Source of the DNA: Candidatus Thorarchaeota archaeon
GTDB taxonomy: Archaea; Asgardarchaeota; Thorarchaeia; Thorarchaeales; Thorarchaeaceae
Direction: 5' to 3'
Assembly: GCA_020348985.1 (NCBI GenBank)
Contig: CP070761.1
Location: 1,009,713-1,073,712 of the forward strand
Length of the DNA stretch: 64,000 nt
Within the stretch, counting starts at the first letter, position 1; each line of letters opens with the position of its first letter. The position numbers were made by a program, and so were the translations under genes. This document shows, piece after piece, positions 12,038-19,988 of this stretch. Below the pieces are notes generated by a model, which saw only the letters and a list, made by a program, of their open reading frames with translations, searched no databases and was not told where the DNA came from.

Positions 12038-13237
12038 TTGAGAGTATGCAAGTGTGGAAAAGCGAACAACCCGACACGGAAATTCTGTGTTCGGTGTGGC
12101 GCGAATCTCATTACTCAAGCCATGGAGGAAGAACCAGCGAAGGAAGCTGTGGCTCCTGTTAAGGCAGAAACAACCCCACCTGCAGCAGAGGTGGCTACGA
12201 CTGCACCTAGGACACCCCCGGCTGAATCCGCACCCGAAAGAATGGTTCGACCAAGTGAAGTCAATCAAGATAGAATGAGGAGAACGGAACCCAAAGTCAA
12301 GTCAGAATTGGAAAAGGCAAGGGAGGCCTTTGCTAGGGCAGAAGAGGTAGGTATAGAAGAAGGAGGAGAGGGTATCGTCGAATCCAGAATGCTCCGGGCT
12401 AGTGAAGTGCGGGAGCTCCTGGAGAAGGCAGAGGATTTCGCAGTCCAAGTGGAACCTCCTGTGCCGGAAGCACCATCAGAAGGAGTAACAACGCCTGCAG
12501 CACCAGCGGTACCTACATCTAGAGATCTTGAGGAGAGCATTCTTGGTTCAAAGTCTGTACTCGTGGAACATGATGAACCTGTTGTGGAAGCCGCACCTGA
12601 ACCAGAGCCATATGTTGAACCAATTGTGCAACCAGAACCCGCTGCAGCACCACCTCCCGAACCTGCTGCTCCAGTGACACCTGTGGAGTCTAGGCCTGAA
12701 CCAATTGTCGAAGCGGCAGCTCCACCACCTAAGCCCGAACCTGTCGTTGAAGTTGCTCCGGCAAAAGCTCCGACTACCGAGGCGGTCCCAGCAGTTGTGC
12801 CGGAGGTCAGTGAGATTGAGATGAAGATTCTTGACACTGACTATCTAAATGACAAGAAGATCAACGGCTCTTTGACAGATTTGAGGCATCTCTACACGGA
12901 GTTGAAACATGTCCAATCCGAATTGGAGGATGTTACTACTCGTCAGGACGAAATAGTTCAGCAGTACCGCAACGATATGGAAGTCAAGAGAGTACGCTAC
13001 GAGGGTCTGAGAGAGCAGACCCTGGCGGCCAAGGACGAGTGGAAAGACGCAGAGAAAGAACTCGAGCTATCTGACAAGCGGAGAACGAAGGAGATCTTGA
13101 GCAGGCGGAAGCGCCTGGAGAAGATCGATTCCGGCATAAAGAAGGGTAAATCCACGATCGAGAAGCGGGTCCGTGACCTTGACAAGGAGAAAGAGAAACG
13201 CGCGGAGAAGGCAAAGAAGCTAGCCGAAAAGAAGTAA
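12038..13237 (+). CDS. Zinc-ribbon protein with Pro/Ala/Glu-rich linker and C-terminal coiled coil
   Basis: This 399-residue protein opens with a zinc ribbon using C4, C6, C17 and C20 (KCGKANNPTRKFCVRCG). Residues 30-255 are a low-complexity Pro/Ala/Val/Glu linker with repeated PEP and PAAP units, surely disordered. From about residue 265 to the end is a long charged coiled coil, ending in a Lys-rich tail (KAKKLAEKK). Start is TTG at 12038. No enzymatic motif is visible; such a layout suits a scaffold or tether. It lies two genes upstream of, and convergent with, actin. A cytoskeletal role is conceivable, but location alone is weak evidence. A very acidic spacing peptide follows residue 100. 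Confidence 0.8.
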   Translation: MRVCKCGKANNPTRKFCVRCGANLITQAMEEEPAKEAVAPVKAETTPPAAEVATTAPRTPPAESAPERMVRPSEVNQDRMRRTEPKVKSELEKAREAFARAEEVGIEEGGEGIVESRMLRASEVRELLEKAEDFAVQVEPPVPEAPSEGVTTPAAPAVPTSRDLEESILGSKSVLVEHDEPVVEAAPEPEPYVEPIVQPEPAAAPPPEPAAPVTPVESRPEPIVEAAAPPPKPEPVVEVAPAKAPTTEAVPAVVPEVSEIEMKILDTDYLNDKKINGSLTDLRHLYTELKHVQSELEDVTTRQDEIVQQYRNDMEVKRVRYEGLREQTLAAKDEWKDAEKELELSDKRRTKEILSRRKRLEKIDSGIKKGKSTIEKRVRDLDKEKEKRAEKAKKLAEKK

Positions 13238-13280
13238 TGGACCCATCGTCCCATACAAATCTTGCTGGAGGGCAGTTCTA

Positions 13281-13664
13281 GTGGCGCTCACAGAAACAGT
13301 AGTGACTATTGCACTCGCCATGATTACGATGGTCGTCTCGATTGTCGTGGGCCATGTTCTTGGTCGTGGTCGAGGCACAGGGTGCCTCCTTTCGCTTCTA
13401 ACAGGCGGCTTGGTTCTGCCAGTAATCTTCAGCATTGTACTTGTTCAGCTCACTCCATATATGATTGTACTTGACTGGCCTACTGGAAGTCCGTTTCTAT
13501 TGCCACCACCCTTCGCAATCTGGATGGGCGGAATCATAGGCGGGATTCTAGGATGGAAGACCTCGGACTTATGGAATCAGGATGAGGACACTAGCTGCCT
13601 ATACTGCACTTTGGTTCCTGTTCTATTGGTGACTGCCGTCTCCTTGATTGCTTTGCTACTGTGA
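13281..13664 (+). CDS. Small four-helix membrane protein
   Basis: The 127-residue product has four hydrophobic segments, at about residues 4-24, 36-56, 74-90 and 108-126. A Gly/Arg-rich turn (GRGRGTGC) follows the first helix and a Pro-rich loop (SPFLLPPPFAIW) precedes the third. Start is GTG at 13281. It resembles generic small archaeal membrane proteins and I cannot name a family. It follows the zinc-ribbon coiled-coil gene by 43 bp on the same strand, so the two could share a transcript. Its end is 64 bp from the convergent end of the actin gene. Confidence 0.7.
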   Translation: MALTETVVTIALAMITMVVSIVVGHVLGRGRGTGCLLSLLTGGLVLPVIFSIVLVQLTPYMIVLDWPTGSPFLLPPPFAIWMGGIIGGILGWKTSDLWNQDEDTSCLYCTLVPVLLVTAVSLIALLL

Positions 13665-13728
13665 AAATGATAGGAAAAAGGAGATTTCGAAGGCAGGCCT
13701 TGCAGCCCACCTTCTGAAACTATGGCGT

Positions 13729-14868
13729 CTAAATGCACCTGTGGATGACTTCTGGTCCTGCCTCTTCGAACTCCTTTCGAGTGACCCACATCTTCTGGAA
13801 TGTCTTGAGTGAAGCAAGAATGCTTCCGCCAATCCAGACAGAATATTGTCTCTCGGGTGGAGCAATGATTCGGACCTCGACGTTCTCAGGTACGAGCTCA
13901 GTGATCTCCTTGTGGAGTCGCTCCTTGAGACCTGGGAACATGGTTGACCCGCCCGACAGTACGACGTTTGCGTACAGGTCACGTCGCAGGTCGACGTCAC
14001 AGTCCTTGATAGACTGGACAATGTGCTCATCCAGTGGTTGGGTATCAAGCCCAATTCCACTTGGGTTGAAGAACAACTCGGGTGCTTGGAACCTCTCCGC
14101 ACCAACTGTGATTACCTCACCGTCAGGTAGCATGTAGGGTTTATCAACACCAGCCTTGTCAGCGACAGTCCTTTCCCTCTCGGGATCGAGAGCCACGTAA
14201 CATAGCTTCTCCTTGATGTCTCTTACTATCTCCTTTTCAGCACCGCTCACGAAAGTTCTACCTCTCTGCCTGAGCAGCCTGCGGAGATACTCGGTAATGT
14301 CTCTTCCAGCCAAATCGATTCTTCGGATGGCGTGTGTAATTGCAAAGCCCTCATAGATTGGGACTATGTGGGTAACACCATCACCAGAGTCGATGACTAG
14401 ACCGGTTGTTCTTCCAGACGCATACAGTGAGAGCACTGCCTGTGTTGCAACGTACACAGCTGGTACATTGAACTGGTCAAACATGACAGATGCCATGCGC
14501 TCTCTGTTTTCTCGTGGGTTGAATGGCGCCTCGGTTAGCAAGACTGGGTTCTCGCTCGGGTCAACTTTGAGATCGTTATAGAACGTATACGACCAAATCT
14601 TCTCGATAGCATCCCAGTCGTCGATGACACCATGTGTGATTGGGTAGACCAGTCGTAGGACACCTCGGAGGTTGATTGCTTCTTCTCCAATGTAGTAGTC
14701 CCTTGTGTAGTGGTCCACGTCGGTCATGATGGATTCATATCTAGGATATCCTATCAGGGTCGGCCATACGCTTCGCGGCTGATCTTCGCCAGCGTAACCA
14801 TTCTTGCTGAGACCGGTACCGTTGTCGATAACAACGGGCTTTGCGCCAAGAAATTCGTCTTCAGCCAT
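13729..14868 (-). CDS. Actin (Asgard actin, lokiactin-type)
   Basis: At 379 residues this is almost exactly the length of eukaryotic actin (375). Phosphate loop 1 reads [16 protein letters not shown] and phosphate loop 2 reads [17 protein letters not shown], both nearly identical to actin. The next stretch, [17 protein letters not shown], tracks actin's HAILRLDLAGRDLTDYL. The adenosine motif is [12 protein letters not shown], and the C-terminus [11 protein letters not shown] mirrors ESGPSIVHRKCF. It should bind ATP and form filaments in the cytoplasm, working with profilin- and gelsolin-type proteins, none of which are in this window. It is monocistronic with a 319-bp upstream region. The similarity is too high for MreB, crenactin or an Arp-like outlier. 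It is the main reason for assigning this window to Asgard archaea. Confidence 0.97.
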
Positions 14869-15187
14869 TTTCTATCGGTCCTCATTTTCTTTCAGAAATC
14901 TAAATCCCTGCGCTGAGCTTTAAGAGCTCTATGCTGGCAGAATATGGCTTCCCCACGTATTTAAGCGTTATTTGGATACTGACAGATAGATTAGAGATAT
15001 ATCTAACATATGTAGGTCGAGTAGGTTGGCGAATTATGCCCTGAAATCTTCATAGACAGCATTTCCGCACTCGACTATGCTGTGGAAGAAAATGAACTGC
15101 TATCATGAACAAGTATGAAATTCTCACCACTGTTCCGTGCACACACTATGCAGAAGATGATTATATATAGTTCGTATATGTGTCTAA
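14869..15187. other. Intergenic region between divergent actin and CARF-like genes
   Basis: No reading frame of note lies here. It should hold the actin promoter on one side and the CARF-like gene promoter on the other. Visible structures are: an inverted repeat GAGCT-TTAAG-AGCTC at 14915-14929, close to the actin start; TTAGA-GATATA-TCTAA at 14991-15006; and two 7-bp complementary pairs that interleave. The first pair is GTCGAGT at 15016-15022 with ACTCGAC at 15069-15075. The second is ACAGCAT at 15056-15062 with ATGCTGT at 15077-15083. Interleaved pairing would form an H-type pseudoknot if transcribed. Confidence 0.5.
15161..15170 (+). promoter_or_regulatory. TATA box of the CARF-like/RNase III-like operon
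   Basis: TTATATATAG at 15161-15170 is a strong archaeal TATA box. Its centre is 26 bp before ATG 15191, so the transcript should be leaderless and begin with that ATG, the second of two adjacent candidates. Confidence 0.65.
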
Positions 15188-15988
15188 ATGATGAGCGTAA
15201 TGTTCTGGACTACTCCTGATGAAGTCATAAGAAGAGAAATCGAGAGCGTCCGTGCCCGTCGAATGATACTTGACCAGCTTGAGGGAGGTCCGAAGACTGG
15301 GTCTGAGCTTCGAGAGAGCATTCGAAAGGACATGGCTGCCCAAGCTGCAAGGAAAGGCGGACGGAGGTTCAAACCGGACAAGATCAAGGTGACAGATCCC
15401 AAGCTCTACTTCAATACGAAACACTTGGAAGACATTGGGATAGTCATGAGTCAAAAAGAGTCGCAACAGAGAGTCTTCAGTCTAGCTCCAAAGGCAGTCC
15501 ATCCAGTCCGCCGCGTCATTGGAGTGACTAGACCCAACCTTCTTCTGACATCCATGGCACGTCCAGAAGACCAGAGGCCATTTGTTGCATGGGTCTCTAG
15601 TGAGAGACGATTCAGGGCGAAAGCAGTCAAGATATTCGTCGAGGCTGAGCGGTTCTCCAGAGGGGTCTCAAGAAACCTGGAGAAGTTTGTCCCAGAGGGC
15701 TCCAGAACCAGATGGAAAGCAGATTGGTATGATCTTCCTATCGAAGTCGCTGGTGACAATGAGAGTGGAGTGAGAGGAGATCTCATAGCAACCTATGACG
15801 AGATTGAAGAAGCTGTTAAGGAAGACGTTGGAGAGTTTGACATAGTTGTGGACTTGTCCAGGGGCCCGCCCACAATCAACATAGCCCTGATGCTAGTGGC
15901 CATGGAATACTCGCTGATGGCGATTCATGCATCAGCCTACGAGGGAGAAAAAACAGACCTCACACAGATTCTACCAAGGGGTGAGTGA
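15188..15988 (+). CDS. Winged-helix protein with C-terminal CARF-like Rossmann domain
   Basis: The product is 266 residues (or 265 from ATG 15191, favoured by the TATA spacing). Residues 20-100 are basic and helical with winged-helix features (ARRMILDQLEGGPKTGSELR, then LYFNTKHLEDIGIV), typical of transcriptional regulators. The C-terminal 150 residues alternate strands and helices. They end with FDIVVDLSRGPPTINIALML, where a strand is followed by a Gly-containing loop and helix, then AIHASAYEG. This strand-loop-helix placement matches CARF domains, which sense cyclic oligoadenylates or related nucleotides in Csa3-type regulators. No CRISPR or cas gene is in the window. The stop overlaps the next gene's GTG start. 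The CARF assignment is by pattern only; the winged helix is more secure. Confidence 0.65.
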   Translation: MMSVMFWTTPDEVIRREIESVRARRMILDQLEGGPKTGSELRESIRKDMAAQAARKGGRRFKPDKIKVTDPKLYFNTKHLEDIGIVMSQKESQQRVFSLAPKAVHPVRRVIGVTRPNLLLTSMARPEDQRPFVAWVSSERRFRAKAVKIFVEAERFSRGVSRNLEKFVPEGSRTRWKADWYDLPIEVAGDNESGVRGDLIATYDEIEEAVKEDVGEFDIVVDLSRGPPTINIALMLVAMEYSLMAIHASAYEGEKTDLTQILPRGE

Positions 15989-16697
15989 CCTGAACACAAG
16001 GCGAGCCTCTGATCTTGAGTGGGTTCCATTTGGGCTCACAGAGAAGCTTGAGACACTGACAACGGCAGTCATAGAATCTCAGAGAGAGGCCCCTTCACAG
16101 AATACACGACTGGTCTCGAAGCTGATGAAATGGTCTAAGCAGCTGGAGTACATTCGCTTAGCAGTCGATAAGATTACCCATGATTTGCAACCAGAAGTTC
16201 AGAATGCTCTTGGCTTGATTATTGAAGAGACCGAGCTATTTCAAATAATCATGTTTCAGCCCAGCACGAAGAATCTGTTTCTGGAAATCAAGGCTCACTA
16301 TCTGGCCGAGTCAGAACTGCCATTGACCGAGAGACAGATGGAGTTCCTTATTTCAACAAGTGAACTGTCCAGGGTCATTGCCCTTGTTGGGGATGGTGCA
16401 ATATCCATGGCAGTACTTCATCAGCTTTGGAGCCCCGAATCTGATGAAGTTGGGACCATGACTGAAAGAAGGGCAGGCGTTGTGAGCAATGAGAATCTTG
16501 CCAGGGTATGTGATAGATGGAATCTGTATGAACATAGAATCCACTTCGATCCTCCAACGCCCACCAAATCCGAGATTGAACATATCAAAGGGACACTTGT
16601 GGAAGCCGTTTATGGGATCATATACATAGAAAGAGGGCTTGATGGAGTGAAGGACAGCATTCGTCATCTCAAAATGGCCAGCAATGATGTTGACTAG
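15981..16697 (+). CDS. RNase III-like fold protein with altered catalytic residues
   Basis: I start this at GTG 15981, which overlaps the previous stop by 8 bp and follows an AAGGGG ribosome site, giving 238 residues. Residues 130-150 (LSRVIALVGDGAISMAVLHQ) follow the RNase III signature ERLEFLGDAVLxxxV. Residues 168-187 (VSNENLARVCDRWNLYEH) match its VSNexLAxxAxxLGL stretch. Residues 201-219 (HIKGTLVEAVYGIIYIERG) match xxADxFEAlIGAIYLDxG. D138 and E208 are kept, but the other two metal ligands appear as A134 and T205, so classical double-strand cleavage is doubtful. No dsRNA-binding domain is present. Residues 1-110 form an unassigned helical domain. Overlap with the CARF-like gene implies one operon and coordinated function. 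Confidence 0.72.
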   Translation: MSDLNTRRASDLEWVPFGLTEKLETLTTAVIESQREAPSQNTRLVSKLMKWSKQLEYIRLAVDKITHDLQPEVQNALGLIIEETELFQIIMFQPSTKNLFLEIKAHYLAESELPLTERQMEFLISTSELSRVIALVGDGAISMAVLHQLWSPESDEVGTMTERRAGVVSNENLARVCDRWNLYEHRIHFDPPTPTKSEIEHIKGTLVEAVYGIIYIERGLDGVKDSIRHLKMASNDVD

Positions 16698-18205
16698 TAA
16701 TCAATGAGGTCATACTCATTTTCACGATAATTCGGCTTTCTTTCAAGTGGGAATATCTTGTCAAACTTCTCACGAACATTGTCATAGTGTTTACGATCAG
16801 CATATACCCTAACTGATGGAATTGTAAGCCGCTGCTGTTTTAGAATTTGCATTAGAGGCCTGCCTTCGTCAGTCTGTTCTAGACTTACCAGATCGAGACC
16901 AGTTTCACCACCAACCAAGACCGGAATCTCACTCAGAAACCGTTCTCCAAGCTCTGGGTTGACAATGTCGATGACACAGCTACCGGGGTCATCAACTAGC
17001 TCCAGCTCAGCTTCGAGCAGGTTCTCTATGTTTTCTTCCATATCCATTAGACGTCCCTTTGCATCTGAATCGAATGCGGCGAGGGGTCTGGAAAGAACCA
17101 CCTTGAATAGTCGGCGATAGCGGATTCTAGCCGCATATTCCCGAACAAAGTCTATCTCTGACTTCTCAAGCCATCTGAATAGGTCTCCATCGGTCATTCT
17201 TGTGAATAGCCCAATGCATTCACTCTTCGAGAGTCCTTCTTCTCTCAATCTGAAATACGTGGCCTTTGACACGAGTGCCTCTGCCAACCTGACGGCATGA
17301 TGAAGATAGAGATCAGAGAACATCCAATTCCGGCTAAGGATGAGTGCCTCCAAAGAATGAAGTGCCTTCAGCATGAATGCTCTTACAAATCGTCCTTCCT
17401 CGTTGCGGGCCACTCTGTTTGTCAGGAGGACTCTCTCAGCTGGAAAGACTCCGAGCTGAACTCCGCTGAAGTGGGCGTCCCTGATTAGATAGTCGGTCTT
17501 ATCTATGTCGAGAGGACTATCAAGAAAGTCTGACATTAGAGAAAGAACAGCGTCAGAAGTCCTACGCCGTAGAATATCAACGACTGTCTTACCTTCAATG
17601 CCGTTTCTCTCGAGCGTGTCAGTGAGATCGCTGTGAAGAATCAGAAACTCTCCCAGATCTGAATGATCTAGACCCACCCACATTCTCAGGGAGAACTCGA
17701 TGGTATGGGAAGTGGGCGGGTGACCCACATCATGAAGCAGGGCTGCGGTTCGGAAGATCTTCTGCTGATACTCATCCAACAACTCTGTCAGAGGAACAAA
17801 ACAGGGTTTTGAGAGATCTTCGCAGTAGTTCACTACCTTGATACATTTCTGGGCCAAGTAGTTGGTCCCTAGGCAGTGTTGGAATCGTGTGTGAGTTGCA
17901 CCCGGATAGACTATGTGTGCAGGCCCAAGTTGGCGGACGTACCTGAGTCGAAGCATCTCCCAACCTGAGATAACGTCAAGTTCCCAAGGTTCTAGGAGAA
18001 TGGCACCATGCACTGGATCTTGTACTGCTTTCTGTCGAGTATGCTTCTCGGCCATAGAAATGAAATGCTCGTGAGCTTGAGTGATGCTCTCGACTCTTGT
18101 CCATTGGCCATTCTTCTCTTTCCTGGCCTGAGTCAACTCATGCTCTCTCATTCCGGTCAGACGAATCAGACGGACGATATCCAGGTCAACATCTTCACTT
18201 GACAA
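16694..18205 (-). CDS. HD-domain phosphohydrolase, SAMHD1/dGTPase-like
   Basis: The 503-residue product matches the SAMHD1-type dNTPase core closely. It has DPVHGAILLEPWE, then LRYVRQLGPAHIVYPGATH and TRFQHCLGT with H110, ALLHDVGHPP with H158-D159, and DIDKTDYLIRD as the final metal-binding stretch. Such enzymes hydrolyse dNTPs to nucleoside and triphosphate, limiting nucleotide pools and virus replication. Related proteins act on other phosphate esters. The C-terminal 200 residues are partly helical and divergent. No SAM domain is present. The last 4 bp overlap the end of the convergent RNase III-like gene. Together with that operon it makes a nucleotide- and RNA-themed neighbourhood. Start is ATG at 18205. 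Confidence 0.85.
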   Translation of the reverse strand: MSSEDVDLDIVRLIRLTGMREHELTQARKEKNGQWTRVESITQAHEHFISMAEKHTRQKAVQDPVHGAILLEPWELDVISGWEMLRLRYVRQLGPAHIVYPGATHTRFQHCLGTNYLAQKCIKVVNYCEDLSKPCFVPLTELLDEYQQKIFRTAALLHDVGHPPTSHTIEFSLRMWVGLDHSDLGEFLILHSDLTDTLERNGIEGKTVVDILRRRTSDAVLSLMSDFLDSPLDIDKTDYLIRDAHFSGVQLGVFPAERVLLTNRVARNEEGRFVRAFMLKALHSLEALILSRNWMFSDLYLHHAVRLAEALVSKATYFRLREEGLSKSECIGLFTRMTDGDLFRWLEKSEIDFVREYAARIRYRRLFKVVLSRPLAAFDSDAKGRLMDMEENIENLLEAELELVDDPGSCVIDIVNPELGERFLSEIPVLVGGETGLDLVSLEQTDEGRPLMQILKQQRLTIPSVRVYADRKHYDNVREKFDKIFPLERKPNYRENEYDLIDY

Positions 18206-18281
18206 GGCTTGAACCTGATTTCAGGAGGTGAGTCTGTTCCTTAAGAAGGCTAGGCATAGGTGAACGGTGATTCATTCTCCT

Positions 18282-18815
18282 TCATCTTGATTGCTTGACC
18301 TTCTCACGTGCCTTGATGTACTCCAGTGTGTAGTCCTTCTCCATTGCTCTGCAATACTCATCTTCGCTACAGTAGCCCCATCTTCTCATAGCCCGACAAC
18401 CAGGGGCTCTTCGTATCTTGTAGAACGGCGGATGTATCAAATTCGCCTTCACGAGATAGTCAGCGACGTTCTTGATACTCTTCTTCCTGAACGCTGATCT
18501 AATACATGGTGGTGCTCTTCTTACTAGCTTCCACTCAACCACATCAAAGAGGCGGAACCAGAGAAGACATTCTTTGGCGACATAGAGTGAACTACATCTC
18601 GGGCAATGACCATGGTGAATAGACACCTCGCAGAACTCATCACGTGTCTCTATAGTTAAGCCAGATTGACGCAGCAGATGGAATTTGATCTGAACGAAAT
18701 GTTCAGGCGTAAAGGAGCCCATTTCAGAAATGAATAAGCGTAGTTCTTCCGCCAGCTCATTGGCAGTGCAATTCCAGCTCTCCTCACTCAAACTGGGTGG
18801 ATTATCATTGGCCAT
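18282..18815 (-). CDS. Cys-rich protein with a primase large-subunit-like Fe-S motif
   Basis: I start at ATG 18815 (177 residues); the frame extends back to 18908, but that part looks like leader sequence. Cysteines at residues 71 and 74 (CPRC), 104, 140, 149 and 155 dominate. The segment from APPCIRSAF, through a helix, to APGCRAMRRWGYC resembles the C-terminal Fe-S domain of archaeal/eukaryotic primase large subunit (PPC...C...GlC), though it is much shorter and lacks the fourth ligand at the usual place. A zinc or Fe-S protein interacting with nucleic acid is plausible. The resemblance may be convergent. It is a single gene, divergent from the beta-propeller gene next to it. Confidence 0.6.
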   Translation of the reverse strand: MANDNPPSLSEESWNCTANELAEELRLFISEMGSFTPEHFVQIKFHLLRQSGLTIETRDEFCEVSIHHGHCPRCSSLYVAKECLLWFRLFDVVEWKLVRRAPPCIRSAFRKKSIKNVADYLVKANLIHPPFYKIRRAPGCRAMRRWGYCSEDEYCRAMEKDYTLEYIKAREKVKQSR

Positions 18816-18971: not shown

Positions 18972-19988
18972 TTGATGCATGATTTGGAAGTCACCTCGGA
19001 GATCGCACTCAAAGAGGCCATCATGTCAATCGAAATCAGTTCACTCAGTGATGATGACAACGAGAAACTCGTCCTCACTACAATCAACGGAGATGTCAGG
19101 GTCTATGACTATGTGTCAGGTGACAAGAATCCGTTGCAGGAGGTTTGTGTTACTAGCGGCTTTCCTCCAGTGTCAACACTGGCGCTTGGAGATGTGACTG
19201 GAAACGGAGTCACTGACTTCATTCTAGGGTGTATGGACAACACAATGAGGACTGTTGTGTTGTCTGAGGGTGAGCTTGAGGAGATATCTTCAACACCTCT
19301 TGGAGGTCTGCCTACAGCTATATGTGCTCTGAATGTTCTTGATGATGACGCAGCTGAAGTTGTGGTTGCCTCTAATGATGGTGCACTGAGATGCTATCAG
19401 TGGTTTGATGTGGTTCTTGATAAACTGGCACACAAGGTGTTAGAACATCCGGTTTTCTCGATCCGACCATTGTCAACGAGAGGAGTCTCATACAGTAGGT
19501 TTGTCTTCGGAGACGAATCTGGTAATCTCTACGTCTATCAATATGCAGACGACCGACTTCATGAGCGTACCAGGGTGAAACTACAAGGAGACGTAAACCT
19601 TGTCGCAACCGGCAATATTCTAGACGATCGCAACGATGAGATTCTCACTGTGTCAGACGGAAGGCGGCTAACTCTCCTGACGCTTGATCAGGGTGGAATC
19701 TCCGTTCTGGACAGAATCAGGGCACCAAGCCCAATCACATCAGTTCGTCTTGGAGTTCTTCAATCTGACGAATCATCAGAAGGTCTGATCATATCATGTC
19801 AAGGCAACTCCAAGGTGACTATCTTCTCCTTTGAGGAAAACCAAATGAAAGAGCAGGCTTCGATTAAGACGGCCAAGAAGTCTGTTGAGGCCCAGATAGC
19901 TATGGGCGACTTGAGTGGTGATGGATCGGCAGAGATTGTACAGGCTGTACGGAACTCGATTTACGTAATGTCGCTGGTTGAAGAGTAG
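18972..19988 (+). CDS. FG-GAP/VCBS-type beta-propeller protein
   Basis: A 338-residue protein built from about seven blades. Each blade has an acidic turn such as LGDVTGNGVTDFILG (residue 72), NVLDDDAAEVVVAS, GNILDDRNDEILTVS and MGDLSGDGSAEIV, followed by a strand pair ending in GxLxVY-like sequence. This DGxxE/DGNGxxD pattern is that of FG-GAP or VCBS propellers. Those mediate protein contacts, sometimes binding calcium. There is no signal peptide, so it acts inside the cell, unlike most FG-GAP proteins. Intracellular propellers of this style occur in eukaryotic BBSome and KICSTOR (ITFG2) subunits, and in several archaea. I cannot assign a partner. Start may be ATG 18972 or 18975. Confidence 0.8.
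   Translation: MMHDLEVTSEIALKEAIMSIEISSLSDDDNEKLVLTTINGDVRVYDYVSGDKNPLQEVCVTSGFPPVSTLALGDVTGNGVTDFILGCMDNTMRTVVLSEGELEEISSTPLGGLPTAICALNVLDDDAAEVVVASNDGALRCYQWFDVVLDKLAHKVLEHPVFSIRPLSTRGVSYSRFVFGDESGNLYVYQYADDRLHERTRVKLQGDVNLVATGNILDDRNDEILTVSDGRRLTLLTLDQGGISVLDRIRAPSPITSVRLGVLQSDESSEGLIISCQGNSKVTIFSFEENQMKEQASIKTAKKSVEAQIAMGDLSGDGSAEIVQAVRNSIYVMSLVEE

Follow-up and report, generated by a model that had tools for sequence, protein, structure and literature searches.

The window, a stretch of 64,000 nucleotides, comes from a genome assembled as one contig of 3.16 Mb and rated 86% complete, so the absence of a gene from this genome may reflect missing data. It contains two co-directional genes, encoding a regulator with a winged helix-turn-helix (wHTH) and a CARF domain and a protein with an RNase III domain, which were found where the first-pass annotation had placed them; its observation as a whole was confirmed. 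Divergent from the CARF gene lies a gene for actin, close relatives of which are encoded by most relatives of the source genome within the phylum, which points to an Asgard archaeon as the source. The features of the locus are as follows:

13729-14868, - strand: actin gene, divergent from the CARF gene (PF00022, E 1.2e-132)
14958-14965, - strand: CTTAAATA, probable TATA box for actin, 97 nt upstream of its ATG; putative role
15163-15179, no strand assigned: ATATA-N7-TATAT dyad immediately ahead of the CARF start, a weak candidate for an operator or promoter element
15188-15988, + strand: wHTH-CARF regulator gene, 266 amino acids
about 15236-15523, + strand: winged helix, from profile match and alignment; borders approximate
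about 15530-15928, + strand: CARF domain, from profile match and alignment; borders approximate
15839-15868, + strand: CARF strand-4 motif VVDLSRGPPT, with P in place of the usual basic residue
15981-16697, + strand: RNase III-domain gene, likely GTG start
16392-16394, + strand: codon of D156, equivalent to catalytic D45 of E. coli RNase III and D23 of Mini-III (Mini-III alignment); invariant in alignment A1
16602-16604, + strand: codon of E226, equivalent to catalytic E117 of E. coli RNase III and E106 of Mini-III (Mini-III alignment); invariant in alignment A1

The reading frame of the second gene is open from its first in-frame ATG at 15927 (15927-16697, + strand), from which D156 and E226 are counted. 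The starts of the homologs favour the GTG at 15981, which makes the gene overlap the CARF stop codon (15986-15988); the second gene thus probably begins inside the stop region of the first, as had been noted.

The first protein had been described as a winged helix joined to a C-terminal CARF-like domain, and profile searches bear this out. The CARF_m5 model of PADLOC matches residues 67-247 with an E-value of 3.4e-16, CARF1 and Csa3 scoring more weakly. All 18 homologs scanned match CARF_m5 as well (best 7e-25), and some also match Csa3, CARF1, CARF3 and Csx1 or Csm6 models. Pfam yielded sub-threshold matches alone, to HFX_2341_N and helix-turn-helix families, and a structure predicted from the single sequence reached a pLDDT of 33, too low for a Rossmann-like fold or a dimeric ligand pocket to be read from it. 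In domain content the protein agrees with the CARF_m5 family (PADLOC-DB PDLC01987), the profile of which extends over winged helix and CARF domain alike. Asgard orthologs from other families match this profile with E-values from 1e-42 to about 1e-80, whereas the subgroup formed by the family of the source genome (f1) is more distant (3e-16), has no basic pocket residue and is accompanied by an RNase III partner. Csa3 likewise combines a CARF domain with a winged helix, with predicted ligand-controlled DNA binding; in Csa3, however, the CARF domain is N-terminal and the wHTH C-terminal (PMC8844856). The f1 protein has the reverse order, lacks the motif-2 arginine and is encoded in a genome with neither a Cas10 nor a Cas1 match. 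Three loci of family f2 (L109, L110 and L111) encode other CARF-like proteins, distant from the CARF_m5 orthologs and with strand-4 motifs such as ELTGSTK.

The basic residue of the published CARF signature, [DN]X[ST]XXX[RK], belongs to the ligand pocket (PMC4012209), and the corresponding arginine of Csa3 touches cA4 (PMC8844856). An arginine or lysine is kept at this position in 19/19 orthologs from other Asgard families (for example DVTDGTR) and in 0/33 distinct f1 sequences, which have DLSRGPP or similar. The residue is common but not universal, and for some CARF families without it different ligands have been proposed (PMC4012209). The sequence of the f1 pocket is thus altered and, given the loss of its basic residue, the protein probably responds to some ligand different from cyclic oligoadenylate, or to none at all. 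No known cyclic-oligoadenylate synthase was detected in the source genome either, and both results weaken the earlier suggestion of a nucleotide-sensing stress or antiviral module.

That the second protein is of the RNase III type, as had been proposed, is confirmed by a PF00636 match at 16380-16637 with an E-value of 1.2e-10 (42.5 bits against a cut-off of 27), which is shared by 23/23 homologs. In a profile search of relatives with solved structures, Drosha came out best (E 4.8e-14), followed by Dicers and bacterial RNase III. A model computed from a three-sequence alignment has a mean pLDDT of 69 and is poor across much of the catalytic core; used in Foldseek, it ranked RNase III proteins first, with zero significant hits. 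The four catalytic acids of E. coli RNase III are E41, D45, D114 and E117. The equivalents of D45 and E117 are kept in the members examined, those of E41 and D114 being alanine and threonine. No double-stranded RNA-binding domain (dsRBD) was matched in the protein or its homologs, and the chain ends about 20 residues past the domain match. Having two of the four acids and no C-terminal dsRBD, the protein falls outside the canonical class 1 of RNase III.

With alanine and threonine standing in for E41 and D114, half of the four canonical metal-binding acids, the question arises whether the protein is catalytically dead and serves the CARF regulator as a dsRNA-binding or scaffolding partner. We regard this as very unlikely. 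Alignment reveals the identical A/D/T/E pattern in Mini-III of B. subtilis (its sequence confirmed against 4oun and 6tnn), an enzyme that is active although it carries both replacements, and whose activity is abolished by E106Q, a change at the residue aligned with E226 (PMC5141509). The second protein thus need not be dead; furthermore, D156 and E226 are invariant, as expected of a working site. The active-site pattern and the missing dsRBD liken it to Mini-III (class 4), but the resemblance is incomplete. Mini-III consists of the catalytic domain alone, whereas the protein described here has an extra, family-specific N-terminal helical region; its sequence is overall nearer to Drosha, Dicer and bacterial RNase III than to Mini-III, which it resembles weakly (4oun, E 0.27), and its genomic partner is a CARF regulator.

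Throughout f1, wherever contigs are intact, the two genes adjoin each other on the same strand, in single copy and often overlapping or nearly so, and the adjacency expected in related genomes is indeed observed. Where a genome of the family has only one of the pair, that gene lies close to or at the end of a contig, and genomes with neither are fragmented assemblies. The mean identity is about 48% for the CARF protein and likewise for the RNase III protein, and over 30 loci the pairwise distances of the two are correlated (Mantel r 0.80, 0/2000 permutations). The correlated distances and the family-wide, single-copy presence point to vertical inheritance rather than the patchiness of defence genes, and in f1 the pair indeed looks vertically inherited. 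Both genes are probably co-transcribed from one transcript. In the open-access literature, which does not include the main 2020 CARF classification, we found no description of CARF paired with RNase III and no report of CARF linked to actin. Both domain families, CARF_m5 and RNase III, have already been described.

The first-pass annotation had read the locus as a nucleotide-sensing regulator and an RNase III forming a stand-alone stress or antiviral module. Its domains and operon arrangement stand, while the proposed function is weakened. RNase III enzymes are able to cut viral dsRNA. CARF domains are mostly defence sensors (PMC4012209), and such a module would arise if the CARF protein detected a nucleotide induced by infection and governed the RNase III as its effector. 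Set against this are the universal single-copy presence and vertical inheritance of the pair in f1, the lost pocket residue and the lack of a detectable cyclic-oligoadenylate synthase in the source genome. The genes have actin rather than defence genes as neighbours, and no relatives of either protein were found in viral contigs. We therefore consider an antiviral module highly improbable. The absence of a CRISPR locus, also claimed before, was borne out: the window contains no CRISPR-like array, no cas genes neighbour the pair, and the source genome, at 86% completeness, has no match to Cas10, Cas1, Piwi or SMODS. Most f1 genomes likewise lack a Cas10 match. With neither Cas10 in the genome nor cas genes alongside, the locus does not have the marks of a CRISPR type III accessory protein.

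PF00636 is matched in 95 of 148 genomes of the phylum and in none of the archaeal control genomes; the remark that archaea seldom have RNase III needs correcting for the Asgard phylum. At least two types of RNase III exist in Asgard archaea, the canonical one and the Mini-III-like subfamily, which are set apart by alignment and by a tree that is long-branched and was used solely for this separation. The Mini-III-like subfamily also occurs in families f2, f15, f17 and f21 and in Methanoculleus. No CARF gene was seen in the wider neighbourhoods of two of these loci (L061 and L063), and within the 148-genome sample RNase III is partnered with CARF in f1 only. The copies in two Methanoculleus genomes (L061, 4974-5678; L062, 4992-5327) adjoin an oxidoreductase-like gene and a gene for an ATP-cone protein; the L062 copy is missing most of the N-terminal half. 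Another Asgard RNase III domain encoded beside a possible functional partner is that next to HrAgo1, which has a dsRBD and sits with an Argonaute and a helicase (PMC11217426). The protein described here differs in having no dsRBD and in coming from a genome with no Piwi match. An association with Argonaute was considered and rejected, a Piwi match being present in 4/35 relatives and not in the source genome.

Linkage to actin was surveyed in the 148 genomes of the phylum, searched with the CARF alignment and the actin protein. Actin is the divergent upstream neighbour of CARF in 30/30 f1 loci examined. The same divergent pair is found in f3, f5, f6, f9, f11, f12 and f16 (14 genomes), seven families in which the linkage occurs without RNase III; f4, f24 and f25 have CARF without adjacent actin. 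Because the divergent arrangement is shared by f1 and these seven families, the CARF gene looks ancient and vertically inherited. The linkage occurs in many families and the RNase III partner in f1 only, so the former probably predates the latter.

The interval between the two divergent genes contains candidate regulatory sequences. The probable TATA box of the actin gene is conserved in 30/30 f1 intergenic regions. The dyad occurs in 10/23 of these regions, mostly just before the CARF start and not at the actin promoter, compared with at most 3 in shuffled sequences; being AT-rich and overlapping the promoter region, it may be mere TATA sequence. The dyad and the TATA elements would fit autoregulation and coupled promoters, although as candidate elements they do not by themselves establish control of actin. 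In f5 and f16 (loci L095 and L105), only about 115 bp separate actin from CARF; TATA-like sequences, GTATAAAAAGCTTTATAG, face each other there and may form a bidirectional core promoter. An Rfam scan of 13000-18500 gave no match, and the sigma-70 and terminator scan models are uninformative for an archaeon. In the 5' leader of actin (14913-14931, - strand), a 7-bp hairpin chosen by eye recurs across many genomes of f1, and some of the changes in it are compensatory. Of its cells, 75% are paired, above its controls of 67% after shuffling and no more than 50% when the position is slid. RNAalifold found no consensus in this leader and did not recover the eye-picked hairpin, which we treat as a lead only.

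The position of CARF back-to-back with actin suggests that the locus serves an inherited form of gene regulation and not antiviral defence as a module of its own. The reading we favour, and to which we give about an even chance, is a non-CRISPR housekeeping pair in which a CARF regulator with an altered pocket is co-expressed and cooperates with a Mini-III-like dsRNA endonuclease. The wHTH-CARF protein would be a transcription regulator that binds DNA and most likely controls its own operon; through the shared divergent promoter region, it might possibly control the actin gene too. Its sensor pocket, without the basic residue in f1, would take some ligand that is not cyclic oligoadenylate, or no ligand at all. 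The RNase III is predicted to be a dsRNA endonuclease with a Mini-III-like two-acid site, probably encoded on the CARF transcript, and would probably process or destabilise structured transcripts under the same control as CARF.

Separate roles for the two proteins must also be weighed, the RNase III then being a housekeeping RNA-processing enzyme (for instance in rRNA maturation) that landed behind an actin-linked CARF gene. Mini-III, which acts on pre-23S rRNA (PMC5141509), offers a precedent, and each gene does exist without the other: members of the RNase III subfamily in Methanoculleus and in further Asgard families have no CARF companion, and seven families show the CARF-actin linkage without RNase III. 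That the two genes strictly adjoin throughout f1, run in one direction and often overlap or nearly do so, however, suggests selection for co-expression, and we judge separate roles to be the main rival explanation, though a rather unlikely one. Returning to the regulatory pair, a bolder version of it would have an ancient CARF_m5 factor, paired with actin phylum-wide, tie a nucleotide-type signal to the expression of the cytoskeleton, having been retuned and joined by an RNase in f1. The targets of this Mini-III-like RNase would be structured transcripts, the actin leader perhaps among them. We consider this version unlikely and put it forward as speculation.

CARF proteins have so far been studied almost solely within CRISPR defence. 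The inheritance of an actin-linked CARF gene in genomes that often have no known cyclic-oligoadenylate synthase suggests that such sensors may also be put to housekeeping use, and it names a candidate, testable regulator for the eukaryote-like actin of Asgard archaea. The Mini-III-type subfamily widens the kinds of RNase III found in the archaeal relatives of eukaryotes and is relevant to how Dicer- and Drosha-like enzymes arose.

Gene order beyond the pair is also kept across genera: actin, CARF and RNase III are followed by genes for an HD-domain protein, a small protein, a beta-propeller protein and further genes. The HD-domain gene (16694-18205, - strand) is phosphohydrolase-like (PF01966 with HD_assoc_2) and runs towards the RNase III gene, with which it overlaps at the stop codons; it is kept as a neighbour across f1. 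The beta-propeller protein of this conserved neighbourhood (18972-19988, + strand) gives weak matches to the propellers of BBS7, BBS2 and RSE1/DDB1/CPSF1.
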